From Obelidium mucronatum (Eukaryota > Chytridiomycota > Chytridiomycetes > Chytridiales > Chytriomycetaceae), in the NCBI GenBank assembly GCA_025765595.1, contig JAIVFH010000115.1, positions 1 to 64,000 of the forward strand: DNA of 64,000 nucleotides. The letters run 5' to 3'. Of the stretch, positions 273 through 48,342 are shown in pieces. The notes beneath the pieces are model-generated. The model made no database searches, had not been told where the DNA came from, and saw nothing but the letters and a program-made list of their open reading frames with translations. Made by a program: the position numbers and the translations under genes. The stretch's first letter is position 1. Each line of letters starts with the position of its first letter.

Positions 273-1643
273 ATGTGGACCTCAACGAATGCTCTACCAC
301 TTATCGACCCAACACCTGTAGAACTTTCCAATGCTGATATCGAATTCCTGGATGCTCTTATCGATAATGGTTGCTTCAGACAAGGAAATTCTAATACAAC
401 AAGTCTCATGACAAACCATGACTTGGACCCATTTGCCTCCTTCGGTTGCTTCGACGCCCATGCAAATACTTCAGCCGTTAATTCAACGCATCAGCAGCAG
501 CAACAACAGCAACAGATAAATAGCTTATCAAATGGCATGAGGTTCGATATGGCCATGGAGATGGCATTCTCCGGATTTGTCCCGAACCAACCAACCCATG
601 GATTCATGTTTCCCGGCGATACCAGCAACATTGATGCGCAGTGGAGTGCAATGCTTTCAACGGCAGTGGCAAGCCCATTTTACCAGTCGCCACAGCTATC
701 TTATCCACTGGCCAACTTTTACTCAAGCCCCATGTCCGTGAACACCACGCCCAGCCTGCATTCATTCCAACAGGGATTGAGCAGCAACAGCGTCCAGCAG
801 CCGTCGCCTGCCGGCTCTGTTTTGGCCGGTGTAACCCAACCATCACCATTAATCCGTCAAGCCCAGAGGGCACCAATAGTGCCAAGAAGGTCAGCTTCCA
901 GCAACATGCAAGCAAAAAGTCAGTCTGCGGCAAGAAGCAGCAGAACTCAGTCTACTCCTTCATTTGCGCCATACACGAAACCCGTCCGTGGTTCAGCAGC
1001 AGTCAATGCAGCAGTGCCAACAGCGCCAGTATCGCCTCCAGCAAGAATGACGCCTTCTCTGCTGATGGCTGAATCGAATACCGATGCAAATGCCCGAATG
1101 ACTCCGTCCAGGCTCATGAACTTGGTCCCAATGATTATTACGTCGTCGCCACTTTCAGCTGGTTCGCCTTCTTCTCCTGTAATGAAGTTTGAAGCATCTG
1201 TATTGACGCCTCAGTCGATTTTTGCTGGATCTCGGCCTTCATCCGCTTGCAGTATGACTGCAGAAACCTCAAGCAGGAAGGGCGTAGACCACTCACAAAA
1301 ACCACCCGCAGCCAATATTTCAAAAGCAAACCCTTCCTCCGCATCATCCTCCAAGGGATCCACTCGAACACTCGAAGAGCGTAGACAATACCGAAAGCAA
1401 GCTGAAAAACAACGACGAGAGCTCATCAAGACCAGTTTTGATCAAGTCAAGCAAATTCTTCCGAGAAATTCTTTTACTGAAAAGCTACCGTCCAAAGAGA
1501 AGGTGCTCGATGTTGCCACTGATTACATTCTTGATTTAATGAGGGAGGAGGACAAAAAGGTCAAGACGATTTCTGCACTAGAATACGAAATCAACAGTTT
1601 AAAAGCGCACTTTACGTTTTCCGCAATGATGGCCTGTGTTTGA
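273..1643 (+). CDS. bHLH-zipper transcription factor, array copy 1
   Basis: Single-exon gene for a 456-residue protein, and the cleanest member of a ten-gene tandem bHLH array. Residues 1-360 are low-complexity (Ser/Pro/Gln-rich, with a run of eight Gln near residue 74). They carry two copies of the array motif, RMTPSLLM (1044-1067) and RMTPSRLM (1095-1118). The C-terminal 80 residues form a basic region (RKQAEKQRR), helix 1, a loop ending in PSKEKVLD, helix 2 (ATDYILDL) and a short leucine-zipper-like helix. Glu9 and Arg12/Arg13 of the basic region are kept, but position 5, His in Max-type proteins, is Arg. It presumably acts as a nuclear dimeric DNA-binding regulator. Unlike most of its neighbours it has no intron in the HLH. 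The start is the first in-frame ATG. Family assignment is firm; targets are unknown. Confidence 0.9.
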   Translation: MWTSTNALPLIDPTPVELSNADIEFLDALIDNGCFRQGNSNTTSLMTNHDLDPFASFGCFDAHANTSAVNSTHQQQQQQQQINSLSNGMRFDMAMEMAFSGFVPNQPTHGFMFPGDTSNIDAQWSAMLSTAVASPFYQSPQLSYPLANFYSSPMSVNTTPSLHSFQQGLSSNSVQQPSPAGSVLAGVTQPSPLIRQAQRAPIVPRRSASSNMQAKSQSAARSSRTQSTPSFAPYTKPVRGSAAVNAAVPTAPVSPPARMTPSLLMAESNTDANARMTPSRLMNLVPMIITSSPLSAGSPSSPVMKFEASVLTPQSIFAGSRPSSACSMTAETSSRKGVDHSQKPPAANISKANPSSASSSKGSTRTLEERRQYRKQAEKQRRELIKTSFDQVKQILPRNSFTEKLPSKEKVLDVATDYILDLMREEDKKVKTISALEYEINSLKAHFTFSAMMACV

Positions 1644-1721
1644 TTTACTCCTTTTTTTCGTGCCCTGTTCATTCATTTTACACGTACAACAATAATTGAC
1701 ATTAATAAACCATTTAATCTG

Positions 1722-3839
1722 ATGCAAACCAGTGCCGCCGCCCCTGCCGAAGCGTCGGATAATCCCGGGCCGGCTGCCGATGAGTCTGTGGCTTTGGACA
1801 ACGCAGGCGACGAGCCGCAGGGCCATGCGAACAGCGGCCGCAGCGAGGCCACGCGACGGCACTCAAACGAGCCAGAAGCGGCGCGGGAAACGATCGCCGG
1901 CCGAGAAGCGGCGCAAAACGATCCGCGGCGGCGCAGTCCGGCGGCGGGCGCGCAGGACCAGGGCCCGTCTCGGCCGCGGTCTTCTGGAAGGTTGCCGTAC
2001 TACCCGCCAGACTACGCAGGCGAAGACGAAAACGGTTATGACGATGATCGAGAATATGGGGGCTATCCAGGGTATCCTAGAAGCTGGACTCCTGGGAGCA
2101 GCAGCTCTCGTCGATCGGCCATGATGCACATGCCATCATCCCGCCTGCAGAGGGACTTCTATCCACCGCAATTTGGAAGACACGGGCCGCGACACGGTTA
2201 TAGCGGCTATCCTGAGTCGCAATCCCCACGCAACACTATGGACAGCGCAGATTGGGAAACGCCTTACTATTCAAATTACAGATACCATCAAGATGCAATC
2301 GAGTATGACAATTTCTTCAGGCGAGAACGCAGGACTCCGCGTCACTTTAATGATTTTGATGACATGGGATCTTGAATTTCGTAGAAACTCGATACGTCCT
2401 AGAATTGCTCGGAGGAATCAACCGCAATATCCTTTTCATTTACCATCTCGCCGTACTTCAGCAATGTCGCAGCAGCATTCCGATTCACCAGCCAGTGCTC
2501 CTCCGGCAACTCCCCGCAATACCGACGAAGGCGATTTAACCAACGCCGGTCTTGGAATATCCGGTCATCATTTACTGCCGACAAGGGAAGCTCCTACTCC
2601 TGCCAGATTGGGGTCATTGGAACCTGATGAAAGGTTCTCATCACGGCCCAGCAGCGCATCATCAAGACTCAGACCGGAGCCATTGGATTACCTCAGCAGA
2701 TTTGAATCCAATTCCGTTGCACTAGAAGATCCGTATGATGATATTAGTGGAAGGAGATATTCTTTTCTGCAACCGTCCAATTTTACCGAGATGTTGACGA
2801 TGGAACCTTCAATATTTGGTATGCAAGCTGATGGCGGTGTAATTCAAGCTGCGACGCCTTCTTGTTTGCCAAGTGAAATGCTGAGAAGGATGAACGCAGA
2901 TGACGCGAATGATGAGGCGGAAGACGCGGCCCCTAGCAGCGACATGGGGATTTTACCAAGTCGATCTCCTCCAATGCTCCCCAGTACGTTTTTATCCACA
3001 GAATTCATTGGTTACGAAGACGATTCGCGCGGGGGTCGCAGTCCCCCGTTTATCAACAACGCTACGCCCTCATCACCAGCAGAAACTCGTCCCACAACTG
3101 TGAACGCTCCGCGGCAGCGCCAAACAAGACCAAAACCTAGAGCGCCAAAAAAGACTTCCAAACCCACTTCTTCTCTTCGAAATGAAGTTGGGACGAGTTC
3201 AACTGCTGGCACACAACAAACTACTGCCTCGTCTAGTATCTCCCGCACAGTTCCGCAACAGCCGGTAGAGATAGGTCCACCACTTCAAAGAAGAATACAC
3301 CGACGATCTTTGACTCCTGAAGCCAGCTGCCCGATTCTCACTTTTCAAGAATACGAGATAAAGTGGACTAATACTCCTTTCCATATCGGGATGTTGGATG
3401 AAGAGCCGCACCATATACCTGGGTTTACCATAAGCTCAGCCGATGATCCTCCGTAAGTCCTTGTTTGTAGTTGTTTTTAAGCGCGCGCGGATCATATCAA
3501 CATGAAAATATAGAGCCGATCCCAAACTGCGGCGACTGCTAAGAAGGAAAATTGCCGAGCAGAAGCGGAGGCTGAATGAAGCGAGATTTGAAAACTATTT
3601 ACGATCTATTCTACGTTCTATGGATAATATTACCCATTTGCAAACCCCTAAAGAAGTTGTTTACGACCGAGGTGACTTCTTGTTTTATTTTCTTTGGCAG
3701 GCCATGATTGATGGTATTTAATTATCTAGCATTGCAATGCATCAAGGAGTTGACTGCGAGTGCAAAAGAGAAACGAGAGATTGTGGCAGCACTTGAAAGG
3801 GAAATTAGCGAGCTAAAAGCCAGTTTGCTGAGTCAATAA
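1722..3839 (+). CDS. bHLH-zipper transcription factor, array copy 2
   Basis: Proposed four-exon gene with introns at about 2303-2384, 3453-3513 and 3672-3729. Removing them joins all frames: each donor/acceptor pair restores an open frame without extra edits. The N-terminal exon is very GC-rich and encodes an Ala/Arg-rich then Tyr/Asp-rich disordered segment. The last two exons encode the bHLH (RKIAEQKRR basic region) and a zipper ending in LKASLLSQ. Helix 2 is divergent: it reads ALQCIKEL where Max-type proteins have ATxYIxxL. The final intron splits the first Ala codon of helix 2 in phase 1 (G|CN), as in copies 3-7. No good copy of the array TP motif is present. The first intron is the least certain; the protein could instead start at the ATG at 2464. 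Confidence 0.75.
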
Positions 3840-3949
3840 AAATCAAAGAAAGTCTCGACCATTTTAATTTTGACAAAAACAAGTCAAAATGAAAGGCGCG
3901 TGGGAGATTCGGTTTTGGGCTTGATTTATTTTCGATTCAACAAAGTCAA

Positions 3950-4958
3950 ATGGAAACTATCGATGCCACCGACTTAGAGCGCCAGTCACCGCCCAAGGAG
4001 GGTAGCCGGAGTTCTAGGAACAGCAGAAACTATGGATTCGATGATATCCCGTTGCAGTACGGAATGCTTCCCCACCCTGACTTGTTTTACACTCCCAATG
4101 GACTCCTCCCACAAGCGCCCGTCTTTGGCGTCCTGCAAAACCCATTGTCGAACTCCAGTGAAATGCAAGCAGAAGTCGATGTGAACCAGTGGAGCGGCCT
4201 CGGTCTCGACTTTGACCCACCGCCTGTTTTGAGTGCAGCTTCCCAGTCCCAGACTCTGTTCAACAATGCTTCTTCAGCAGTCTCCAGCCGAATGACTCCA
4301 GCTCAGATCCTCAAAATGGGCGAGCAAATGCAACAAAGTCACGATTCTACTTTGGTCCACCCACAACCCCAACAACCACTTTCTTCATACCCCTTATTCC
4401 TGCAACATGCCAATCAATTGAATTTGCACTCGCCGACTATGCAAGCGATACCGCAGCGCCCAATACACAACTCATCCGTGCCACCCTCGCTCAATCAACA
4501 TCAACAGTTTCGACTTCCCCAACACACCACCCCAACCCGTCCTCTTTCCACTCCAAACAACCATTTCATGAATTTCCCTGATACTTTGCCATTTATTCCC
4601 TCCCCAATGTCGTTCCACGCTTTCCGGTCCACCGCGCCGTTACTGGATTCTCCTGCATTTTCTGCCTATTCTCCAAGTTTGGATCCCACCAGCGGTAGCG
4701 CAGCAACACCTTTATTGACGGCTGTTGGAACAGGAAAGAGCGTGTTTGGATCGCTGGGGAACAGACCAGCAGCATCAGAAAACAATGATAATGCACAAGA
4801 CCAGGAGGAGCAGCATAACTTGCTGTGGAATTGTGGAACGCGGTTGGATGAGTTGCATGTTGCAGATGAAGGTAGCGGCTCCGACGCGGTGAAACAAGCT
4901 GCAATGGAAGCTGTCGTTGGTGCTGTTTTTCGAGAACGGAAACCGAAGCAATCAAAGT

Positions 4959-5045
<87 letters not shown>

Positions 5046-5429
5046 TCGATTGTAATTAAGTTGGGTTTCTTTTTTCCATGTATTAGGCGGTCAAGAAAGA
5101 ACAAGTTGAATGAAGAAGCCGTCGAGTTACGGAAAGTGAGTAGGAAAGAGGCAGAAAAGCATCGACGAGATGAAATGAAGAAATGCATTGATGAACTCAA
5201 GACACTGATACCAAAGCGTGCAAAAAATGAAAAGTTTGCTTCAAAGGAAATGGTTTTGGAGAAAGGTTCGTTTCAAAACACTGTGTGTGGCTTTCTCTGT
5301 TCACTGATTTTTTTTCTATCAGCATTTAAATTGGTGATGGATTTGAAAGAGCAGGAGGTTCAAAAGCTTGGAATTGTGGGGAAGCTCGAAGCAGAAGTCG
5401 AGGCATTGAAACGGCGACTGGGCTGCTGA
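3950..5429 (+). CDS. bHLH-zipper transcription factor, array copy 3
   Basis: Three exons, with introns 4957-5086 and 5266-5322. Exon 1 encodes about 335 disordered Ser/Pro/Gln-rich residues with one TP motif, RMTPAQIL (4289-4312), plus an FMNF block and a downstream SVFG block also found in copies 7 and 8. Exon 2 carries the basic region (RKEAEKHRR), helix 1 (KCIDELKTLIP) and the loop (FASKEMVLE). Exon 3 carries helix 2 and a zipper ending KRRLGC. The second intron is the conserved phase-1 intron in the helix 2 Ala codon. The first intron contains an uninterrupted run of 80 T. Probable nuclear DNA-binding protein with unknown targets. Confidence 0.85.
4963..5042 (+). repeat. 80-nt poly(T) tract inside an intron
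   Basis: Uninterrupted run of 80 T within the first intron of bHLH copy 3, starting six bases after the donor GT and ending about 44 bases before the acceptor AG. It may be a real expanded homopolymer, or its length may be an assembly artefact. Confidence 0.95.
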
Positions 5430-5713
5430 CTTTATTCAACTTTTCGCTAGATCTATATTTGCTTGTTATATTATTTGCTTACATCTGCCTATATAAATTC
5501 CCTTGGATCCTTTTATTATTCTTATTATTAAATAAATATTAAAATAAGCTTAATTTGCAACTCTCGGTTCAGGCGCGTGCCAAATGTTGGGCTTTAACAG
5601 CACGCTTCCTTCCACGCACCAAAGATTTTTTTAATTTTCCGATTTTGGAATAATATTTACGTTGTTAAAAGAGGGTGGAGATACTACAAAAAGCAACGAT
5701 TGATTTTAACCAA

Positions 5714-7097
5714 ATGGGCGATCGCGAGTACTTTGATGATGTAGATGCTGCCCGGGCTGTTGCGATGCCAGACCTTGGATGTGCAACATCTGATGATTCA
5801 GAGGCAACCGAGTCGGACTGTAACATCAGACAAGTTTATAGAAAGCGATTGCGTACTTCAGAGCCATCGCTGTTTGTTGGTGCCAAATATTCAGCTTGTG
5901 AAGGAATTGAAGGGCAAGGATGTCAGACAACCAGCGGCACAGATGGAGATCACTTGTCGAATGAAAGCCACTCTAGTACATCATCGGTGAATTACGAACA
6001 CAAGTGTACGATACCATCTGTGGTCTATTTTACTCCTCCTTCGACCAGAATGAGAGTAAATCAATCAGTCACTCTGCCACCTTTGTCGTCATTCTTGCCA
6101 GTATCCCCACCATTCACTGAAATTCGAACTCAAGAATATCAACCAAATTATCGGAATGTTGTGATTCCTGTTTCTAGAGGATTCGGAGGCGGGCTGGAGG
6201 CATTAGTCTCTGTTTTGGAACACGACTTGGAACAACGTCAAGAAACACCTTTATCCACTCAAGAAGGCATCAATAAGAGTCTTGAAAATGTAACCACACC
6301 AATTTCCTAATACTTTTTTTGCTGAAAGTTTTTTTTTCGTGGCTTTTATTTTATAGGACCCAACGCGTTTCTCACTTTCTCAATCCGCACTACACGACAA
6401 ATCATCAATCGCAGCAATTAATTATCCTATCTTAATAAGACCGCCGGAGCCATCTCATGTGACGTTATCCACTATGAATGGACCTGCGAGTTCTCTTCGG
6501 AGCGACTCTAGTGCAAATATACCCTCATTGCGATCAGCATGAATTGAGTGGTGTGATTTCGCGTTCCTCGACGGCTGGCCCGTCTCACAGCTCAAAAGCA
6601 ATTACAGCCCAAAATTACCAACACACGCCACGTTAGATCTTGACGAGCATGCTGCAATCCGAAAAGGAAAGAAGCCAAGAATTAATTCAAAAAACGAAAG
6701 GTGATTTTTTGGAAGTGGGAGGGTTTTTTTGTGGTGTTTGGGTTCACACACACAACTCTCCTTTCGTGGTTTTAATGTGAAAAAACCAATTTCGCCAGTC
6801 CTATAGATATTGACCAGAAACGCATTTATCGTCAGCAGGTTGAGCAAAAACGAAGGGATCTTTTGAAACAGTCGTTTGATGCTCTTAAAGCCTTGGTTCC
6901 CACAAAAAGGAAGTCTCCGCCAAAAGATGAGTTGCTGAACGAAGGTATATTCGTTTTTGTTCGGGAGCTGCGATATTCATATAGATTCTTTTTAGCGACA
7001 AGTTATATTCCTTCAACTGCAAATGGCTCGCGATGAAAAGATGAGGATGATCGAGGAGATGGAGGCGGAAATTGTAAAAATTAGAAGCGCATTGTAA
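5714..7097 (+). pseudogene. bHLH-zipper gene, array copy 4, disrupted
   Basis: A recognisable bHLH gene with at least one lesion. The first exon starts at the ATG at 5714, in frame with a GTG 39 bp upstream. Introns at 6290-6356, 6701-6798 and 6945-6995 are well supported by phase. The third exon encodes the basic region RQQVEQKRR and helix 1, and the fourth begins ATSYI of helix 2. After ATSYI (about 7005-7009) the zipper continues only in the next frame (LQLQMARDEKMRM...), so one extra C truncates the protein after about 13 further residues. An in-frame TGA at 6540 in exon 2 is a second problem, removable only by a weak extra intron such as 6459-6590. No TP motif was found. It could be a decaying copy, or a functional gene with one base error and one missed intron. 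Confidence 0.65.
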
Positions 7098-7273
7098 ATT
7101 TAGCTCATTGAATAATATAGAGAGCGTATGTATATGTTCAACTTTTGTGGGATGTGTTTGAGAAATTTCTGCTGGGCATGCTTCTCAATTCAGGAATTTT
7201 CCGAATCCCAAGTGCCAATCTTTTTTTCCGACGATCAACCATTTCATTCAATTGAATCGCGACCATTCATCAA

Positions 7274-8676
7274 ATGTCTAGCAGAAGCATTTCGTATGAC
7301 AGCAGATCGCCGTCGCTCATAACCCACGAAGAAGTCAGTCTGATCAATGCGCTTCAGTTTGACTCAGCGACGATGGTTCACAGCCACCCAATCTCTGACT
7401 TTAGTCCAGAACAATCGAGACTTATTGGAGCATCTTCAGGACTTACACCAATGTTCAATCACTTTGATCCGTTTATTCCAAACTCAAATGCTGGAGCATG
7501 CTCGATGGATCATGATTTCGTTGCATTAGATACTACGGAAGGACCCCGAGCACCACCAGCAACTCCAATTACATTCAATCGGCACTCAATTGTTTCGTCT
7601 CCGCTTCAAAATCACGTTTTGGCACCGGAGGGGGCTGAAAGGATCTCCAGAACCCCTGATTCGAGATCTCAACAGCCAAACCTGATTACGTCTCCACTAT
7701 CAAATCACGGACCATCCCCATCACAAAGCATATCTAGTATATCGTCTGGAATTTCAAACCCTACTACTGGACCTGCACGAAAAAAATTACATCGAAAAAC
7801 AAGTCCGTTAGGACACCCAGGAGATGACCACAGTTACCAGTAGTAGTCCACACAGCTCTCGCAGTGGTTCGAGCACTCATTCGAATTCCTCCGTCAGATT
7901 GACTCCCGCCCAAATTATGGAAATTGCCCCCCAACATTTCAACGCCGAACCATTATCTTCAAATTCAAGCGCCATTAACACAACGAGTTCTGCGCCTCTA
8001 ACTTTCAGGATGATGTCTTTACCACTGGCCGAAGTTCCAGTAGTTTCGAATGACCCTATGGAATACTATGAATCTCGCACTGCCCCGATATATGTTGCAT
8101 CCTCTGAGAACTCAACGACTGGCTCAATGTCAAGTGGGTCATCAAAAGGAAGTGAGACGCTGCAACCGACTATGGCGTCGGCGGTGATGGTGGATCGAGG
8201 TGATGTCACGTTAGATATTCTTGAGAGTTTGAATGAAGGCACGACACGAAGGAATCAGTTCATGTGAGTTTTGAATATCAAATAGCTTGTTTTTTGGACT
8301 CTTGAACTTAAAAAACTGTACTCAGGGAGGGTGAGAATAGTCCTGGGTCACGAATACGGAGAGAAGCGGATAAGAAACGACGCGAAATGTCAAGACAGAC
8401 GTTGCATGAAATCAAAAGGATTTTGCCGGGAGGTCCGTCGACTCTTGAGGGCGTTACATCCAAAGAAAAGGTGTTGGAAAAAGGTACCAAAATACCCACA
8501 TTTCTTGTCAGACAATTAACGGGTTCATTGTCCTTCCCTTTTTCAAATTTGGTTCCGATTTCAAAGCTGCTGAATATATTGCCGAGCTACAGAGAACTGA
8601 AACTGAGAAAGTTCGGCAAGTTAATAGTTTGGAAGCGGAAATTAAGGAAATGAAGCAGAGACTGATGAAAGAGTGA
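7274..8676 (+). CDS. bHLH-zipper transcription factor, array copy 5
   Basis: Starts at an ATG (MSSRSISY) and encodes a disordered Ser/Thr/Pro-rich N-terminus, one TP motif RLTPAQIM (7896-7919), and then the bHLH. Introns 8264-8325 and 8484-8566 flank the exon with the basic region and helix 1; the second is the shared phase-1 intron in helix 2. The frame changes once between about 7800 and 7843 with no convincing intron, so a one-base error or lesion is likely. The basic region reads RREADKKRR: the invariant Glu9 that contacts the E-box CA step is Asp here, which should weaken or change DNA binding. Helix 2 (AAEYIAEL) and the zipper are typical. Confidence 0.75.
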
Positions 8677-8864
8677 ACTCTCAACTCTGAATGAGATGTT
8701 GAATATACTGTTTTGGTAATAGAATGAAACCTAGCCCTTGGATACTCTATTATACTTTTTTTCAAAAATCCTGCAAAAATCCAATCAAATTGCGAGAAAA
8801 AGGCACGCGCCGGGTTTGGTAAAAAAGAAGCCGTGATACTTCCAGAACCCACCACCAGTCAACA

Positions 8865-9896
8865 ATGGACAACAGTCTCTCTCTATCTGCCGCTAGTACC
8901 GAATGGGACAGTAAATTCCAGCAAAACGGATGGTGCTTTGGATTTCTGTGGAATCCAACTGTCAAAGTCAGATCTAGACTTTTTTAACTCTTTTGCGGAT
9001 TCGCTCGCTGATCCTAGGGATAATTTATCTATTGGAAACCTACCGGATGACGAGTCCGACGAGTCTTTCAAGGCGGTGACAACTGTTAGTGGGTACAGTC
9101 CCATCGCCAGAGAAAACTACCAAATTTGCAATCGAGCGACGCCAGCGCAGCTGATGAATCTCGGAGTAACTTTAAGGAATAAGGGACAACTCGTCGTCGA
9201 GTTTTGGATCAATACCTGAGAATTTGTCAAACTCAATGTCACAGGACGCGTTTGACAATCTCTTCCAACAAACCAACTTTCCTAAACATGAGGCAATCTA
9301 CTCGAACTATATATCAGCATCTGAAGCCACATTATTTTATTCGCCGGGCGGAGCACAAACGGATGCACTTATAGCTGCATCTTTGCAAGAAACCTTGTTC
9401 TTATTAAGCCCCCCAAGCAAACCGCAGCCACAAAACTTCAGCATACTCAACCCTTCAGAGATAAATTCATCTTGTTTGCCGCTTCCTCCACTACCGTCAA
9501 AAAAGGCGTGAGTCTTCCGAATCAAACTGCGATCCTCAGATCGTCCCTTAACCCGACACTTCTTTCAAACAGAGTTTCAAAAAGACCAGACCTTATAGAA
9601 AGACGTAAGTTACACAGGAAGGAGGCAGAGAGTCAGCGCAGGCGATTAATTGCCAAGTATGCGGAAGAATTGAAACAGTTGACCCCAAAAGCGATGGTGA
9701 GGAATATCTCTCAAGAGAAAGTGATAAATTCAGGTGAATATTCCTGACGATGGGATTTGTTTCTTATTGACGTTGAATCCTTGATTCAGCTGTGGAATTT
9801 ATACTTCACCTCCAGCATCAAGCCATCGAGAAAAAGAAAGAAATTAAGCAGCTCGAGCTTCAGATTTCTCTCTTAAAAGCTGGAATTAAGTGTTAA
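8865..9896 (+). CDS. bHLH-zipper transcription factor, array copy 6
   Basis: Probable start at the ATG at 8865. The protein has the array layout: a short acidic region (SKSDLDFFNSF), one TP motif RATPAQLM (9133-9156), then a basic region (RKEAESQRR), helix 1, loop (ISQEKVIN), helix 2 (AVEFILHL) and zipper. Introns 9508-9572 and 9734-9789 are clear, the second being the shared phase-1 intron. Two frame changes are unexplained: one near 8925-8945 after the start, and one near 9160-9200 just after the TP motif. Either the sequence has base errors or the gene is degenerating. The bHLH exons themselves are intact. Confidence 0.65.
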
Positions 9897-10009
9897 AGTT
9901 AAGATCCTCAAGGATGACAACACGTGTTTTCCCTTTTTTTTGATCTCCAAAAACAATTTTTGCACTCGTGCCAATAATCGCTACCAACCCAGCCGACTTG
10001 TTGATACTG

Positions 10010-11597
10010 ATGGCAGACGGAGCAGGACAGCAGCGACCAGTTGGACACCAAATACCTCCGGGGAATGATCTCGATCTAGAAAGCTTTCTCTTCGAGAACA
10101 CATCCCAGGCTCCGCAAATACCACCAGTTTCAAACGGTTCACTTCCGTATCAAACTCATCCTGATGTCAATAACCTGGCGCATGGCATTCATAACTCCTT
10201 TTGGATGAGTCCCATGCCCACTCACTTGGCTGAAGAACAGAGCGACCCCTGGTCTGCAAACTATGACACTACACAATCGAACAACTCTCAAACGCAAGAT
10301 CTTCCGCAGATACATCAGCATAACCCATATTCATATGCATTCAACAATATCTTTCAGATGCCTCCTCGACCGTCCACCCCGCAGTTCCAACACATCATCG
10401 AGGAACAGTCTATGCCATTCACACCAGCATTTGCAACTCCCACACTGCCGTTTTTATCATCGAGCTCGTCTCAACAAATGCCTCCTCACACAGCGTCAAC
10501 GCAATCAGCAACACCCATCCGGAAAAGCCCGCCAAAATCTGGCAGTCTTCGAAGTATCAAGAATCCAATGATTGCAAAAGAATCCAATTCCTCCAATCGA
10601 GCAACACCGGCTCAAATTATGAGTATGAATAGTCAAGCGGCTTTGCCCGAAGCGGTTGGCACCAGGTCTATTTCAAACCCGGCACTGCAAACTTCTATTA
10701 ATTCTTCAATACCACGAAATAATTCTCTTCAGAGTGAGATAAGCTCTCCTTTTATGAACTTTTCGCCACCTGGATTCCTCCAAACTCCATCGTCACTTGT
10801 GCCTACTTCTGCATCTGGGACTGGAGACAGTGTTTTTGGTCAAGCTGCCACTTTGTATGAAAATACAGGCAATACCTTCTCATCCATGCTGGAACAAACA
10901 TTATTCAGTCCCATGAACGTCATGCCGGACAGCAACATACATAATAATCAGGGAGCTATTCACGACCAGTTTTCTGGTCTCAACTTTTCTCCCATGCCGT
11001 TTGGGATGGGCGCCTCTATCACAACGGCGAATCAGCTGTCATCTTCCGCAACGCCTATTATCTCTTCACAGCCCTCGAACACAAGCAGTAGTGCAAAACG
11101 ATTAACGCCGATGGAAGTAATGAATCACACTTCTTCACCTCTGCATCCGTCACCGCTCCAACCAGTTGCCATCAAACGAAAGCTCACCACATCGAACCCA
11201 GCAAGTCCAGTGTATGAGTTTTTTTATGTTTTATGTTTTCTGCTAACTTACAAAACAACCGACACGTTTTTCAGGGAGTCGCATTTAGCAGACAACGCGG
11301 AACGACGAAAAGCATACCGCAAAGAAGCGGAAAAGCAAAGACGCAATCAGTTGAAATCCGGGTTTGATGCAATCAAGGATTTGATACCAACGGCCGATAA
11401 ATCCGCTTCCAAAGAGAAACTACTGGAACTGGGTAACATTTATTCCATGTCAACAAGCTTGATCAACTCTGAATCTATATTTTTTAGCCTATGACCATAT
11501 TTCGGAACTAAAGGAATCAGAGAAGGCGAAAACCTCGGCCATTCGGGCGATTGAATATGAGATTCATGAGTTGAAGGAGAGGCTTGGACAGCAGTAA
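10010..11597 (+). CDS. bHLH-zipper transcription factor, array copy 7
   Basis: Three exons, with introns 11212-11274 and 11433-11487. The start is the ATG at 10010; an upstream GTG in the same frame is less likely. About 400 disordered residues carry two TP motifs, RATPAQIM (10598-10621) and RLTPMEVM (11099-11122), an FMNFSP block and a SVFG block. The bHLH follows: RKEAEKQRR basic region, SGFDAIKDLIP helix 1, SASKEKLLEL, and helix 2 beginning AYDHISEL across the phase-1 intron. The first intron is 63 bp, in phase and free of stops, so retaining it would add 21 residues just before the basic region. The gene is intact throughout. Confidence 0.88.
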
Positions 11598-11743
11598 AAC
11601 ACTAATAGGGATGTTTTTGTAATGTGATAATATATTTAGATATTGCAAATGTGTGTAGTTGCTTAGAAATGGAGATGAAGAGGGGGCACGCTTTGTTTTG
11701 GAATTGCCTTTTTTTCCTCAACAAATCCCAACCAACGTTTACT

Positions 11744-13203
11744 ATGAGCGAAGCCGTTGTTGAAGGAATCTTTAGCAGTCTACTTGGAGACAATCCTCCA
11801 ATAGAGCATCAGACTGGAGCTGGCAGCACTGGCAGCATCCCTCTTGCCTGGCTTTCAAGCCCCCAACCACAATTTAAAGAGCAGTTACCGCAAAGCCCGC
11901 TGCAGACTAACAATCAGCAACAGTTCTTTATACCAAGTCACTTAGGGACATCAGATTTGTGCAATCCATTGGTGCCATCATCAACTCCACTTCGAACTGT
12001 TGATCACCACAAACTCCGGCGTATCATCAACCCGACCCTTGTAAAACCAACACAGAAAGCTATCAAAAGAATAACTCCGTCTCAGTTGATGACATCTTCG
12101 CCCCTTCAGAATGCGAAATCTGAAGTTGACTTCACTCAACTTTTTAGCCCCATTGCAACACAGATTGAACAGCAAACTCCGCAAACATTTGCCTTGTCGA
12201 ATTTTGTACCAAGCCCAATGATGTCTCAAAATCTGGAAGCTGAAATCATGGGATTTTCTCCGCAACAGTTTGGATTCTCAACGCCTTTCATCGGACCCTT
12301 TAAAGTTCCAGAGTTCACGGCATCAGGCAGCAACATTCTGGCAAGTCCGATGATGCATCGCTCAATGAGATCGTCCAGTACCTCATCGGCTGGTTTTGGT
12401 TCTTCTAATCCCAGCCCTTTCTTTAATCGAGCAACTCCCTTCGAAATGATGAATGCTGTTGCTGCGATGGGGCCTCCGACTTCTCAAACACCAGTAAATC
12501 GTGCATTCGAATCGCCCTCTATGTTTATGAACTTCGCTCCCGGTCAACGTTCTCTGTTGCCTTCAAATTCTTTGAATGTGGTATCAGATAATACAATACG
12601 AAACAACTCGGAGCCGATTGTGTTTGGATCTCCTCGGCCGTCGACATCTGCTTCAGCTGGTCCTGCCTCTTTTATGACGACAGGATCTTTCACATATTCA
12701 AAGGAAGCAATCCTGTCCAGCTTGAGACAGTTCAGTACCCCGTCAACATTGGATGATATTGAAGGCGAAGAAATTATCAACTCATTCATGCCTCCTACCT
12801 CGAATCCATCGACGGTTGATTCAGGAGTTGCAAACGCGAAGTCCCAAAAGGCAACAGCAACAAAGTGAGTTACCTTTTTTCATTGCATTACATGTTGAAC
12901 TTAAAATTGTTTTATTCTTGATGTTATTATAGAAAGCGAAGAGCCAAGAAGGGAGATGGGCCAAGTGATCGAAGAGAGTACCGAAAAGAAGCTGAGAAGC
13001 AAAGGCGTGACATGATGCGCGAAGGATTCGAAACGATAAAAGTACTGGTGCATGTCGAAGACAAGACTGCTTCGAAAGAACAGGTACTGAGTGCTGCGTT
13101 GGATTGTATCACGGAATTGCAACGGTTGGAGTTAGAGAAGGAAGCACAAGTATTCTTCTTGGAGCAAGAAGTGACTCTTCTTAGGAGTGGGTTGGGGATT
13201 TAA
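11744..13203 (+). CDS. bHLH-zipper transcription factor, array copy 8
   Basis: Two exons with one intron at 12865-12932. The start chosen is the ATG at 11744 (MSEAVVEG); an in-frame ATG at 11669 is possible. The N-terminus is disordered, with two TP motifs, RITPSQLM (12068-12091) and RATPFEMM (12428-12451), an FMNFAP block and a VFG block. The second exon holds the whole bHLH-zipper: RKEAEKQRR, helix 1 (EGFETIKVLV), ASKEQVLS, helix 2 (AALDCITEL) and a long zipper (EKEAQVFFLEQEV). The helix 2 intron found in copies 2-7 and 10 is absent. This, with the zipper wording, pairs it with copy 9 as a recent duplication. Confidence 0.88.
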
Positions 13204-13256
13204 ATGTTATATTACATAGACGTGGGTTAAAATATAATCTAATTTCATGATCACCA

Positions 13257-14223
13257 ATGCTGAGCCCCGCCGCCCTGGATGAAATGTTCAATATTATCAT
13301 GGCGCGCCAATTGACATCAACGTCTCCGGAATCATCTTCTGAGTATCCTAGTGCCCCTCTTCGGACTTGAGTGCCCCGCAACCAAGCCTAGGATCGATCG
13401 GCTATCAATACCATTCTAGCCATCAACGCATTACTCCGTCTCTGGTTATTCAAAATGAATCGGCGGCTGTTATTGGATCCAACATAAGCCAACCGTTTCT
13501 CCAATACTTCGGACTTTCTCGTCAATTTGAACCAGATCAATCAAACTTCTTATGCCCTTGCATAGTACCCACCGCAGATTCAATGAGACTGCCTTTCGAT
13601 CTAACATCTGCAATTTCACAAAATCGGCCGACAAGCTGCTTGGCTTGCCATGCGTTTTCGACTACAAATTACCAACCTTTCTTGGACCCAATGGCAAGAG
13701 CAACTCCATCGGCCTTTATGAATATTTCTTCCCCTGAATCGGTGCTTTCTTCGAAGCACCACAGCCACGGCTCTGAGTCACAAAAAACGGGGTTGCAACA
13801 CACTGCCAAAACCAACAAAGCCAGAATGCTGAATCCGTCAGCACAATCTATAGTGCATCCAAATAGACATCCAGTTCCTCGAAAAGAACCGTTGAGTGAT
13901 TTTTTCCTAATATTCTAAACACTTGTAAAAACTTAACTGATGGCTCGTCATTAATACATATTAGGAGGTCCAAGAATGGTCGTGTCGATCGCAGAGAATA
14001 TCGAAAAGAAGCGGAGCGAAGCAGAAGGGATTTGATGAAGTGCAACTTCGACATGCTCAAGGAACTTTTGAACATGCCCAAAAGGCTTGTTTCTCGAGAC
14101 TACATTTTGGACTGCGCAACGGGGCATATTCTGGATTTGCAAGCACAGGAGAAGGAGAAGGAAGAACAGGTTTTGTTCTTGGAGAGAGAGTTGGTCACGA
14201 TCAAGAATCAACTTGGACTTTGA
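13257..14223 (+). CDS. bHLH-zipper transcription factor, array copy 9
   Basis: Probable start at the ATG at 13257 (MLSPAALDEMF), only 54 bp after copy 8. The frame changes once between about 13340 and 13400 without a convincing intron. Two TP motifs follow: RITPSLVI (13427-13450) and RATPSAFM (13697-13720). One intron (13891-13964, with an unusual gttgag donor whose phase nevertheless fits exactly) precedes the exon with the basic region RKEAERSRR, helix 1, loop, helix 2 (ATGHILDL) and zipper (EKEEQVLFLEREL). Like copy 8 it lacks the helix 2 intron. The break near 13370 is either a base error or a lesion. Confidence 0.7.
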
Positions 14224-14349
14224 AACCCGGACAATCCGTTGTACATACCTTTTTGATGATGTAAAATATACGAAAATATATAGTATGTCCTGCTGAACTC
14301 GATTCTAATTGCCTTTTTCTGATCAATCAATCAGTCAATCACCAAAACC

Positions 14350-15372
14350 ATGTCAACGTCGATGGGAACTCAACGTGACGATAACCGAGCAAAATTAGCA
14401 GCGACCTACAACAGCCAATACAATCTGTTGTATTCTCAGACACATCAACAGGACTATTTAATGGCGATGGACCCATACATCACCGTCTTTCAAGCAGACC
14501 AATACCAACAACTACTCCCCATGGCTCTCAACTCCAGTACTATAAGCTCGATAAGTCTTCAGAGAGATGTAGAAGCGATGTTTCCGATTTGGCCGCTGTT
14601 TGATGCGAGTTACGTGTTTGGGACAAAGTCAAACCTAGCTCTTCAGTCTGATTCTTCCGCACATCATGGCTATTACGATGAATATTCACACGCACGTCCC
14701 TTACTGCAGCCACAGTTTTTTGCTTCAAACTGCGCTTTGCCTTGTTCAACAACCTCAGCAGCGCCCCCTTCTCAGCATCCAACAAAATCAAACCCTCGAC
14801 AATATCGAACTCGCCTCAACTCCACCTGCAGTTCTAATTCCAACACTCCCGGGATCTCAAAACCAAGATCCGCACTAGTTCTAAAGAATACGAGAGCGAC
14901 ATCACTGCGTCGACTCACACCGGCCCTTGTACTTCAGATCCCACAATCACGCGAAGAATTTTCATCCTGCTCACAAACAGATAGATTGACTCCATCGCAA
15001 ATTATGAATATACCAGGGGATTTTATTGACACGAATTTAACACAAGAATCACAGTTGGGTCTTGGTTCTGTTGGAGTTAATGCCAAGCAATCTACACGAA
15101 TAACTCCGACTGATGTATTCAAAAAGATTTCGACAAAATCATTGCTGACCTCGAACTCTTCGTCCCCAAAGAAGCTCTCTCAAGAAGAAATCCTGACTAT
15201 AGGTATTTAATACTTCCTCGTTTAGTGATGGTGATTCGCTGATATGTATTACAAAGTGTACAACCAAATTGCAAAACTTGGAACCATTTCAAGAGAAAAA
15301 GCCCAGAAAATCAGTAGCTTAGTGCATCGAATCAACGCTCTGAAGGTGAAACTCGGCGGTGGTCGACTTTAG
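14350..15372 (+). CDS. Degenerate bHLH paralogue without basic region, array copy 10
   Basis: Two exons with an intron at 15203-15256. The protein is about 320 residues with three TP motifs, RLTPALVL (14911-14934), RLTPSQIM (14983-15006) and RITPTDVF (15097-15120), the most of any copy. Past the last motif the sequence goes straight to KKLSQEEIL, equivalent to the loop segment SKEKLL of its siblings, and then across the shared phase-1 intron into helix 2 (VYNQIAKL) and a zipper. The basic region and helix 1 are missing. The frame is otherwise intact, so this is a clean deletion rather than decay. It cannot bind DNA in the usual way but could still pair through its zipper, which suggests, as inference only, an inhibitory partner for the other nine. 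Confidence 0.75.
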
Positions 15373-31378: not shown

Positions 31379-34300
31379 TTATTTATTGGTATCTGCGCTT
31401 AACCCTTGATTGACTGCAAGGAGACGAACAGTTACTTTCTGGTCGAGACCCAAATACCCATCACTATTAACGTACACTTCCAGCTCCATCGGACCAGGGT
31501 CCATAGCTACTCTGAACTTCATGGAGCAACGCAAATCAGAAGCACTGCCACCACTTCCACTAGAACCGCCAGCAATACGCTTCAACGCCAGCAATTCATC
31601 TGAATCCTCCTTGCCCAAGAACAACAAACCATCCCTCAACTTGAGCTTTTGGGAACTTTGGCGAATGAATTCGGTACTCTTTAGCGTTGTTGCGCGCATT
31701 CGAAGGAACACGATTGCGAGTTATGGACACTTTGAGTTCATACTCTTTCCCACAATCCACCACCCAGACTCCGTTTTTGTTCATACTCGATTCCACGGAA
31801 ATAACAACATTCATCACGGGTAAATTCGCCACAACAGCCGCAATTTCTTGTGCATGATTGGATCGGACACCAGGCAGTGTTGAAAACAGCCGAACGACAT
31901 CCATATCGCCCATCTTGCATAAATCAAACAAGCCAGTTACAGGCTTCGTCTTGTGGGATCTCAGAGCTTCCACATTCTCTTCTGTCAAGTGAGGCAACGA
32001 GAGAAGTGGTGAATCGGAGGGCCATCTCGCCTGCTTCACGGCCTGCATCATGTTGATAACACCCAAAGTAGTACCCAAGATGCCCTTGTCCGCCGCAATA
32101 TCAACCATGGCCTGCATCACACGAATCGACTGATCCAACACAGAAGTTGTATCGGTATTATAATCAGAGCAAGGAAGAGTTTTGACGCGTGTCAAATGCG
32201 CTTGAAGCAACAAGAACGCCTTGACATGTGGATCCTCAAAGCCAAGGTTCTCTGGAACGCCTCCAAACAACTCCATACCAGGTTTCCAGTAAATCAACAC
32301 TGGAACTGGAAGGCTCTCTTCCAAAGTTTGATTCATTTTGTCTTCATTGTGACGGACGGGTAATTCATTGAATTCTGGTACATCTGAGAGAATTCGAAGC
32401 ATATGGGCAAAATCTCCGTCAGGCCGCTCCCCCTTTTCAACATCTCCAACAGGTTTGTAGTCTTTTGTGAGACGGCGCATGACGAGTCCAACAGTCTTGT
32501 ATGACAGATAGTAGTAACTGGCTATTTTACCATACACTGTTGGTTTCACATAGAATCCTTGATCAATTTCAATACAGAAGGCATTCGACAAATCTGTGAA
32601 AGTTGTTTCAATCAAATTGGACAAGAACAAGTTGATTCCATCTGGCGTAGTATCAACAACTCCATAGTAAGTCGGGTTCTGAATAAAAAAATTTTAAAAA
32701 AAAATATTAACATTAAGGGAGTTCAACAAACCATTTGCAGGCGGCGGTAAAAGTAAGTCCAAGTCAAATAATCAATCGCATCCTGTTTTGACTTTATAGT
32801 TCCTCCAACAATCTCAGCATTCATATGATCATGGATACAGTTATGCAAACTACTCTCCACAGGAAACGGCTCATGCAAAAACTTTTTGTAAAAGTTCTTT
32901 TTCGAGTCTTGAACAAGAATCCGGGCCACACCAGAATCATCAAACTGAGGTCGACCTGCTCGTCCCATCATTTGAAGTACATCTGTTATCGGGAAATCAA
33001 CGTATCCTTTTGTTTTGGCATCGTAGAATTCTGTCCCCTTCACTACTACCAAGTGGGCCGGGTAGTTTACACCCCAAGCCAGAGTCGACGTGGCAATCAA
33101 GATTTGAATCTTTCCATTCACAAATAGCTCTTCACTGAGTTTTCTGTCGGGTTCAATCAATCCAGCGTGGTGCAGCCCGATTCCGAATTGGAGAGAAAGC
33201 TTAAGGCTTTGGTCCTTCACGTTCTCCACCAACGTTTCAAGGTCGTGTTCGGGCATATGGAGGAATCTTTTGGGATTGTCTTCGAGACCACAAAACGCAA
33301 TCAAATCCTGAGCTGTGAGACGCGTTTGACGACGGGATGAAACAAATACTATCACTGGTTTTGTCGGGGAATGCGTCAAAATCGCAGAGTACGTAGGTTT
33401 GTTCATTGATTGCATTCTTGGGCAGTCTTAAAATTGGTTTTCACATCGTTTTAACAAGTGCACACGTAAAATGAAAAAAAACGGGGGAGGAAACTCACAA
33501 TGCTTTCCAGCAAACCCGTCAATATAGACTTCCAACGGAACAGGACGCACAGAATGCCTGAAATTAAACAATCCCTCATTCTGAATATGCAACCAATCCC
33601 CCAAATCTGTGGCATTAGCTAACGCCGTACTCAATCCAACAATCCGAATCTTCTTTTTTGTTTGCGCACTGATGTAATTCATTCTCGATACAATAACCTC
33701 CAGAATAGGTCCACGATCCCCTCCAAGCAAGTGGATTTCATCGATAATAACCAACGACACATCCGACACGTATTTACGAGTTTGCCAGTTACGACTGATA
33801 CCATCCCACTTTTCAGGAGTTGTAATGATGATATCTGCGCCCTGGATGGTTCGTAAATCTGGAGTCACGTCTCCAGTAAGTTCGACTAATTTTCGACCCA
33901 TTTGTTGGGTAAGCCGAGACTTCCAGTCCTGTACTCTTTCTCGGACAAGAGCCTTCAAGGGAGCTATATAGACAACCTTTGACTTGGGGAAATCACGAAA
34001 CGCTGCCCTGTATTTTCGCAATTGAGTTAGAAGTGTATTTTATGCAGAAGGAGGGAAGTAATACCAGAGTGCCAGTTCGGCGGCTACGGTTTTACCAGAC
34101 CCAGTCGGCGCCCCAATCAAAGCATTATTAGTAGTCCGATACAAGGTATGGAAAATCTGCGTCTGCACAGGATTGAAGTAATCAAACCGCTTCAAACAAA
34201 TCTCTTCCAACACTGTATCCCCCAAAGCCGACACCGGCAGCGGTTGGAGATTCAATAAATCCGTGTGCGGAGATCTCTTCATGGCAGGCAGAATCAAATG

Positions 34301-46052: not shown

Positions 46053-48342
46053 ATGCAACGCCGTATACTCCCCAAGATGCTTCTCTCCACACTTGCCACT
46101 ATCATTGCTGGCGCACTTACCTGTGTGCAGGCAGCCCCAGCTCCCAGAGCCTCCGCAAACAAGATCATTGGATACCATGGTACGTTTGATGTCCAAAGAG
46201 GAAGTTTCTCGATGTGTTCTTACCGTTTCGTCTATCAGAGTCTTGGTACTGGTATGACAACGGCAACCAACCAATGCAGTTTACTCCCGAGTTGACTTCG
46301 AAGTACACTCACATCAACTATGCGTTCGCCACCATTCACTACCACACTGCCACAAAGCAGGTAAGGCGCAACAGCGAAATTGACACTTGCAGTCATTTCT
46401 TACTTCATCATTTCAGTTCTATGTTGGATTCACCGATGCTTGGGCTGATTACCAAAGTTCCCCGGGAATCAGCGCTCCAGCGGAGTGCTTCAAAGTCCCT
46501 GTGTCCCAGCAATGTACCGGAGGAGGTGTTTCTTTGGTTCCATACATTGGTGCCAACGGAACTTGCCCAGACAAGGGCTGTTACAACCCATCTGGTGCCC
46601 CAGGAGCACCCCGTAAGCCGCAATGTGAGGCTGTCTTGGACTCCCAGGGTCTTCAATACGACTGGACCACCACCCCACCTTCTCCATACATCTGTGGTCA
46701 CTACGCGTACGTTATGAACAAGGTCAAGAAGGCGAACCCAGGATTGAAGTTCCTGATCTCCATTGGTGGTTGGTACGACTCCAACTTGTTCTCTGCTGCT
46801 ACAGAGCCACAGTACATTGACAAGTTCGTCACGTCAATTGTCGAGTTCGTCAAGTTCTTTGGATTTGATGGTGTCGACTTTGACTGGGAATACCCAGGAT
46901 GGGAACACGGAGGATCCCCACCATTCGCCGGTGGTGCTGCCGGAACTGGAGACGCAGAAGCAATGACTGACTGCTCCAAGAAGACTTGTGGATACCCAGC
47001 CCGTACCAACGACATGGCCAAGTTCAACGCCATGGTCACCAAGGTCCGCACTGAGTTCAAGAAGCTTGGAAAGAACTCGTCTGGACGGGACTACTTGATC
47101 TCTATGGCTGCTCCAGCTGGTTACGACAAGATGAACAAGTTGGACATCAAGACTATTTGCCAACAGCTCGACTTTATTAACATTATGACTTACGACATTC
47201 ACGGACCATGGGACCCAGTGACCAACCACCAAGCCGCTTTGTATGACAACACCCCAGCCGAATTCCAAGACAAGTCCATCCCAGCCACTTCTGTTGACTA
47301 CGCGGTTTCCTACTGGATCGACAATGGATGCCCAGCAAACCAAATCGTTGTTGGAGTTCCATTCTATGGACACGCTTGGGAGGCTCCAAAGGGTAACTCC
47401 AACGGTCTTTACCAACCAGGAAAAGCCGCGCCTGAAGCAGTCACCGCCAAGAAGAACTTTAAAGATATTACTGCTTCGGCAGCTGTTACGTACTGGGACG
47501 ACAAGGCTCAAGCCAGTTATGCGTACGACGCTGCGAAAAGCGTGTTCTGGTCATACGACAGTCCCCAAGCCATCTCCACCAAAGTTGGCTATGCCGCTCA
47601 AAGAGGACTCGGAGGGTTCATGGTTTGGCCAGTTGCTGGAGATGACTCCAAGGGTACGTTGCTCAAGGCTTTGACGGGTCCAGGTATCACCCCACCACCA
47701 CCACCATCCTCCTCCCAAACCGCTGCATCCAAGAGCACCACTACCACCACCACTGCCACCACTGCTGCCCCGACTACTACTACTACCACTACCACGACCA
47801 AGGCCCCAACAACTACTACAACTGCGGCTCCAACCACCACCACCACTACCACTACCACTGCTGCTCCAACCACCACAACCACTACCACCACCACTACTGC
47901 CAACCCAACTACCACTGCCGCTCCAACTACCACTCTTGCATCTGACTGCTACCCAGCCTGGTCTGCTGCTACTGCTCCATACATCCAAAACGCAAAGGTG
48001 TCATACGCTGGTTCTAACTACGTCGCCAAATGGTGGTCTGGTCCAACGGATCTTCCAGGCAAAGCTGACTCTTGGAACCTTGTTGGCACATGCGGGAGCG
48101 GCCAAACCACCACTACAACAACTACAACCACCAAGGTCGTCCCAACCACTACTACTACTACTACCACTACTTCCAGCGTGCCAACTACTACTACCACCAC
48201 CACTACTTCCAGCGTGCCAACTACAACAGCTAGTGGGTCCCTTGTTGGCCAGCCATGTACCCAGTCCAGCTCAATTTGCTCTGCTGGAACCAAGTACTAC
48301 TGCCAAGTCAACACTTGGATCATCTGGTATGTCGGATGTTAA
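46053..48342 (+). CDS. Secreted GH18 chitinase with CBM5/12-like chitin-binding module
   Basis: Three exons, with introns 46180-46238 and 46361-46416. The N-terminus MLLSTLATIIAGALTCVQA is a signal peptide (second Met of MQRRILPKM). The GH18 barrel begins KIIGYHESWYWYD and holds the catalytic DGVDFDWE (46867-46890, acid Glu at 46888-46890), MTYDIHGPWD and GGFMVWPVAGDD. A long Thr/Pro linker leads to a module with CYPAWSAATAPY and VAKWWSG, the aromatic pattern of CBM5/12. A second Thr linker precedes a short Cys-rich tail (CTQSSSIC...WYVGC). It should cut chitin outside the cell or at the wall during growth or release. Codon use is noticeably more C-ending (AAC, ACC, CCA, AAG) than its neighbours, suggesting high expression. 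Confidence 0.95.

Follow-up and report, generated by a model that had tools for sequence, protein, structure and literature searches.

In a 64-kb stretch of the genome of the aquatic chytrid fungus Obelidium mucronatum (Chytridiales; contig C115, JAIVFH010000115.1; hereafter the window, to which coordinates refer unless another contig is named), ten genes of a tandem array of basic helix-loop-helix (bHLH) factors lie one after another, and an eight-residue motif, R-[MLIA]-T-P-x-x-[LIVFM]-[MLIF] (here the strict motif), recurs in the disordered regions of their products. The motif is non-random and enriched in the array alone, and a protein from each of two other genera retains it. We take it to be, probably, the site at which a common partner protein binds and, on sequence grounds, give about even odds (roughly 0.5) to the reading that it forms a short N-capped docking helix for a partner common to the array bHLH factors; what we infer in this reading is that there is a helix and a partner and that copy number matters.

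In a six-frame scan of the whole window the strict motif occurs exactly 14 times, always on the plus strand between 1044 and 15120; two matches elsewhere fit a looser form only. Two motifs each are found in copy 1 (RMTPSLLM, 1044..1067; RMTPSRLM, 1095..1118), copy 7 (RATPAQIM, 10598..10621; RLTPMEVM, 11099..11122), copy 8 (RITPSQLM, 12068..12091; RATPFEMM, 12428..12451) and copy 9 (RITPSLVI, 13427..13450; RATPSAFM, 13697..13720), one each in copy 3 (RMTPAQIL, 4289..4312), copy 5 (RLTPAQIM, 7896..7919) and copy 6 (RATPAQLM, 9133..9156), and three in copy 10 (RLTPALVL, 14911..14934; RLTPSQIM, 14983..15006; RITPTDVF, 15097..15120), the last of these being the lowest-scoring copy and lying, as aligned by eye, where helix 1 of the HLH is expected to begin. 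This is the distribution given by the first-pass annotation, a reading of the sequence alone. Its statement that eight of ten array proteins carry the motif holds within the window, but the array is longer: contig C115 starts inside it, and on C10, a contig of the second haplotype that is 96–98% identical to C115 across the array, two further genes, A and B (at about C10:388600-391876), precede copy 1. Each has one motif (RMTPSQIM in A, RMTPNQIL in B), and the array therefore comprises 12 tandem genes, ten of which hold a total of 16 motif copies.

The 12 disordered regions of the array, assembled from the two haplotypes with frame joins and amounting to 4,038 residues, served as the test set for non-randomness. 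Composition-preserving shuffles of these regions gave a mean of 0.0116 matches, with a maximum of two in 20,000 shuffles, against the 16 observed, and motif discovery that made no use of the pattern recovered the same 16 sites in ten proteins. Three later rounds of discovery yielded nothing that surpassed the top result from 10 shuffled sets; the octamer is the only element found to be common to the disordered regions of the paralogues. When scored with a weight matrix derived from the sites, the 16 sites reach 16.6–25.1 bits while every other octamer stays at or below 3.9; the best octamers of copies 2 and 4 score 2.7 and 0.3 bits, leaving no trace of the motif in either protein.

Relaxing the pattern one position at a time had little effect. 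Freeing the Arg adds a single octamer (VLTPQSIF, copy 1), and freeing position 2, Thr, Pro, position 7 or position 8 adds none; no octamer in the array regions has Lys for Arg or Ser for Thr, and the Podochytrium protein described below contributes one more near-miss, RLTPSSLR. Since single-position near-misses are almost absent, the invariance of Arg, Thr and Pro, which had been proposed together with the hydrophobic character of the last two positions, is not a product of the pattern used. Thr-Pro pairs number 56 in the 12 regions; Arg stands at -2 in 17 of them, and the complete motif is present in 16 of these 17. Ser-Pro pairs are commoner (68), and none of them has the motif frame.

The proposal that a short motif was kept while its surroundings turned over is borne out. 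Once the octamers are masked, BLASTP with its low-complexity filter on aligns none of the paralogous regions with one another at E<=0.01, and nucleotide identity, 0.600 within the motif, is 0.268 and 0.272 in the 60 nucleotides on either side, the random value being 0.254. Over the 14 window copies, Arg is written with three kinds of codon, Thr with three and Pro with four, and the motif copies are therefore not recent DNA copies. Between C115 and C10, 12 of the 14 copies have the same residues (nine are identical in DNA, three differ by one silent change); the remaining two are disrupted on C10 by insertions of one base, either genuine or introduced in assembly. Chance or a low-complexity artefact is ruled out by the shuffles, the pattern-free discovery, the masked alignment and the relaxation test. 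As part of the docking reading, and at the same even odds, the motif may be taken to be under selection at the protein level.

We determined the distribution of the motif over the whole 48.3-Mb, 694-contig assembly with DNA patterns and their reversed controls, position 2 being limited to NYN codons in the ATG-end and Gln/Glu searches. The broad pattern gave 603 matches and its control 909; the motif therefore does not characterize the proteome at large. When the pattern had to end in ATG, 50 matches were obtained (control 57): 23 fall in the array (C115, 10; C10, 11; and one on each of C414 and C454, where copy A is found) and 27 lie elsewhere, eight of the latter fitting the strict pattern by our reading of the codons. 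Allowing Gln, Glu, Asp or His at position 6, with every permitted end, gave 67 (control 109), of which 23 are array matches and 44 are not, and the form with Ser or Ala at position 5 gave 53 (control 50), four of them in the array; this last form also matches at C74:13686, with another bHLH array about 10 kb downstream. Two matches outside the array that were inspected lie in stop-to-stop frames of 22 and 40 amino acids.

The picture sharpens when an ATG end is combined with Gln or Glu at position 6, with Ser and other codons allowed at the Thr: 34 matches were found, against seven for the control. According to their codons, read by eye, 17 of the 34 encode R-x-T-P-x-[QE]-h-M, all on the four array-carrying contigs, and the other 17 have a different residue at the Arg or the Thr position. 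Genome-wide, R-x-T-P-x-[QE]-h-M occurs in the array only (17 of 17). A general proteome motif is ruled out by these counts against reversed controls; background frequency across the proteome, the outcome that the first-pass annotation had named as damaging to its proposal, was looked for in them and not seen. The suggestion that the motif is shared by the whole family proved too wide, in view of copies 2 and 4 and of the absence of a strict match from 18 bHLH loci outside the array (the C74/C359, C35 and C31 arrays and single loci, the survey stopping short of the bHLH places on C72 and C13).

Orthologues from other genera were sought with a query made of the motif octamers and a bHLH consensus, which returned three proteins among 498 candidates: Obelidium copy 8, HDU98_004247 of Podochytrium sp. 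JEL0797 and BCR33DRAFT_719124 of Rhizoclosmatium globosum. When their disordered parts are compared with those of the 12 array proteins, the Podochytrium protein has its best match in copy 8 (5e-34, the next at 7e-7, composition correction off), and the Rhizoclosmatium protein matches copy A (4e-25, composition correction on). In these alignments RITPSQIM and RATPMQIM of Podochytrium stand opposite the two motifs of copy 8, and RITPSQIM of Rhizoclosmatium stands opposite that of copy A. Identity between the Podochytrium protein and copy 8 is 12/16 in the motif, 119/350 (119/310 with gaps excluded) in the rest of the disordered region and 44/78 in the bHLH domain. In a tree of bHLH domains, in which two of 20 inner branches are well supported, copy 8 and the Podochytrium protein are joined at 90/82. 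Queries with copy 7, whole or bHLH only, matched its own allele alone and no other species. Absence from orthologues of sister species had been the second outcome named as damaging; two orthologues of other genera keep the motif in place, but since the query held motif words, the search shows that motif-bearing orthologues exist and could not have revealed loss.

Array and orthologue copies together gave a 19-copy profile, in which position 2 is Met, Leu or Ile in 14 and Ala in five, position 6 is Gln in 11 and Glu in two (13/19, the pattern leaving this position free), position 7 is hydrophobic in all 19, as the pattern demands, and Ile, Leu or Val in 17, and position 8 is Met in 14; Asn follows at position 9 in seven. 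Position 5 is mostly Ser (9) or Ala (5), and the commonest form, previously given as R-[AL]-T-P-A-Q-[IL]-M, is corrected to R-[MAIL]-T-P-[SA]-Q-[IL]-M.

These preferences at positions 2, 6 and 7 agree with the sequence pattern of a Thr N-cap with a hydrophobic staple. In the docking reading, the octamer would fold, or be captured, as a brief N-capped helix in which position 2 would be the hydrophobic N', Thr the N-cap, Pro N1, Ser or Ala N2 and Gln or Glu N3, the last forming a capping box; positions 7 and 8 would be N4 and N5 and present a hydrophobic face, and the invariant Arg would make a charged contact ahead of the helix. All copies would recruit a single common partner, in all likelihood a coregulator of transcription, with valency set by how many copies (0 to 3) a protein has. 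Helix N-caps have an N'/N3/N4 triangle, with a hydrophobic N'-N4 contact and Gln or Glu at N3, according to PMC11101637, which analysed Asp and Asn caps and states that Ser and Thr caps have similar patterns. The octamer has the same hydrophobic N', Thr N-cap, Gln/Glu N3 and hydrophobic N4, but theirs is a pattern of folded proteins, whereas the motif lies in disorder and has Arg and Pro fixed as well.

Three further observations are compatible with a helix. Just 5' of the basic region, copy A has KLTPAEA and the Rhizoclosmatium orthologue NLTPEEDAK, and we would read T-P-x-E in both as a helix start. In the AlphaFold model of copy 8, the sole helix outside the bHLH domain, of low confidence, comprises residues 112-115, within RITPSQLM, and residues 105-116 are free of any three-residue run with a predicted local distance difference test score (pLDDT) below 50. 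A sequence search of the PDB with a 24-residue motif peptide (E<=10) returned HeliScrew4 alone, with LTPEQIAAL-like units (E 0.041); as this is a designed protein, judging by its name, the match would be an analogy and not a homology.

Several points weigh against the docking helix. A helix is modelled at one of four motif copies, with none at the second motif of copy 8 or at either motif of copy 1, and the models of copies 8 and 1 are of low confidence at the motifs and were built from alignments of 4–5 sequences. The hydrophobic residues at positions 2 (or Ala there), 7 and 8 are built into the pattern, although near-misses are absent, and a strict Thr that admits no Ser, Asp or Asn exceeds what N-capping needs. 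The partner is so far a hypothetical coregulator. Outside the array, looser forms occur at about background and in total at or below the controls. Retention elsewhere comes from only two orthologues, retrieved with a motif-containing query. Finally, the disordered stretch of copy 8 best kept in Podochytrium is a block at 12236-12298, EAEIMGFSPQ.FGF.TPFIGP; it is better kept than the motif, which is therefore not the sole conserved element in copy 8.

Of the two functions first suggested for the motif, docking or a phospho-switch, docking remains plausible and a switch run by cyclin-dependent kinase (CDK) or mitogen-activated protein kinase (MAPK) is the less supported, there being no Ser variant, a basic residue at +3 in one of 19 copies and Arg at -2. 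In such a switch, a proline-directed kinase would phosphorylate the Thr, a phosphothreonine reader (Cks1-like, FHA or F-box) would bind it, and the hydrophobic pair would aid docking of reader or kinase. The motif resembles CDK and MAPK phosphosites in placing a fixed Thr-Pro in disorder, and it has the minimal CDK form S/T-P; it differs from them in its rarely basic +3, its Arg at -2, its lack of Ser variants and its hydrophobic +4 and +5. Proline-directed kinases also take Ser, yet the motif frame is absent from every Ser-Pro site of the array regions. ERK prefers Pro at -2 and Cks1 a hydrophobic residue or Pro, whereas the motif has Arg there and the sole octamer without it has Val; FHA readers read +3, which is mostly Gln. 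The MAPK D-type docking motif consists of a basic cluster followed by hydrophobic-x-hydrophobic, whereas the octamer has one fixed Arg and its hydrophobic residues are adjacent, not alternate. According to PMC12062237, CDK sites are S/T-P, optimal with Lys or Arg at +3, and Cks1 is specific for phosphothreonine. Because a phosphothreonine-specific reader would explain why no Ser replaces the Thr, the phospho-switch keeps a minority share of our belief, unlikely as it is.

We are more doubtful of a narrower version of the docking reading, a private recruitment code, in which one dedicated chytrid coregulator would read the octamer, the 12 bHLH proteins would compete for it with 0–3 copies each, and the member without a basic region would serve as a decoy, soaking up the partner without binding DNA. 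Slightly less credible still is an internal contact, in which the motif would pack on its own or a paralogue's HLH-zipper and regulate dimer choice within the array. Enrichment confined to array proteins, beside bHLH domains and including gene 10 with no visible basic region, would suit such a contact; the position of the motif, which ranges from residue 59 to 364 in our constructs, its copy number of 0 to 3, the presence of HLH sequence without the motif in copies 2 and 4, and single-chain models lacking confident structure at the motif all argue against it.

A degron seems very improbable. The motif would be a destruction box (D-box, RxxLxxxxN) for an activator of the anaphase-promoting complex/cyclosome (APC/C), and it shares with the D-box register Arg at 1, Ile, Leu or Val at 7 and often Asn at 9 (7/19). 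Met at position 8 is a preference that the D-box is not known to need. Where the D-box has a buried Leu at position 4, the motif has Pro, and no octamer of this form has another residue there (key residues R1, L4 and N9, with I/V/L at position 7, as defined in PMC12401543). An inherited leftover, in which shared ancestry of the array genes, with the motif itself unselected, or a clustering by chance would account for carriers that are all tandem paralogues or their orthologues, is scarcely credible, given that the octamer is intact while surroundings and codons are scrambled, that shuffles and genome-wide counts exclude chance and that two other genera keep the motif.

The octamer is a concrete handle on an expanded factor family, being the only recurrent element found in its disordered parts and confined to the array in its best-defined form: peptides with the motif might serve to isolate the partner, and valency can be tested on the proteins themselves, which naturally have 0–3 copies. 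It is also a clean example of a selected short motif told apart from background. To our knowledge, recruitment of the transcription machinery by the transcription factors of chytrids is little understood, and a literature search that included six written forms of the motif found no description of motif or array.

The genes of the array in the window, all on the plus strand, are as follows. Copy 1 (273-1643) is a single exon with its bHLH domain (PF00010, Pfam) at 1380..1538. Copy 2 (approximate span 1722..3836) has several exons and a divergent bHLH. Copy 3 (3950-5429) was modelled by hand with exons 3950-4956, 5087-5265 and 5323-5429, and a run of 80 T (4963-5042) lies in the first apparent intron, shortly 5' of the bHLH exon. 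Copy 4 (approximate span 5675..7094) has its bHLH at about 6821-6913 and is followed by copies 5 (about 7274-8676) and 6 (about 8865-9896), copy 7 (10010-11597; other-haplotype allele BDR26DRAFT_854145), copy 8 (11744-13203; allele BDR26DRAFT_854146; Pfam bHLH at 12970..13122), copy 9 (about 13257-14223) and copy 10 (about 14350-15372). According to our own reading of translations, a FEN1-like gene lies on one side of the array, separated from it by a single gene of uncertain type, and an eIF3g-like gene lies on the other.

An HLH scores above the Pfam curated cut-off in copies 1, 3, 4, 7, 8 and 9, and in copies 5, 6, A, B and a piece of copy 2 with an array-built profile only (six members, copy 5 included); a basic region ahead of helix 1 is visible by eye in copies 1, 3-9, A and B and is divergent in copy 2. 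For copy 10, neither Pfam (two pieces tried) nor the array-built profile gave an HLH match, and inspection by eye showed no basic region and no clean splice. The gene has helix-2/coil-like sequence besides its three motifs and may be Id-like or degenerating; the two haplotypes agree over this stretch save for a few substitutions.

Like other bHLH factors (PF00010), the array proteins have a C-terminal bHLH followed by a long helix, a long disordered N-terminal part and, in the model of copy 1, a short hydrophobic-acidic N-terminal helix (residues 20-31); they differ in forming a 12-gene tandem array with a common octamer outside the domain. Short hydrophobic-acidic stretches at the N-termini of the array proteins (273-380 and others), such as ADIEFLDALID, LDLESFLFEN and SDLDFFNSFADSL, resemble activation domains. 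The other tandem bHLH clusters (C74/C359, C35 and C31) belong to another subtype (REAEKQRRESLR.GFEKLKDLLP) and lack the motif; tandem bHLH expansion has happened repeatedly in the Obelidium genome. Elsewhere in the window, pieces of an SNRNP200/Brr2-like helicase (Helicase_C, winged helix, Sec63) lie on the minus strand at 31599-33427, and a glycosyl hydrolase family 18 (chitinase-like) gene is found at 46384-48339.

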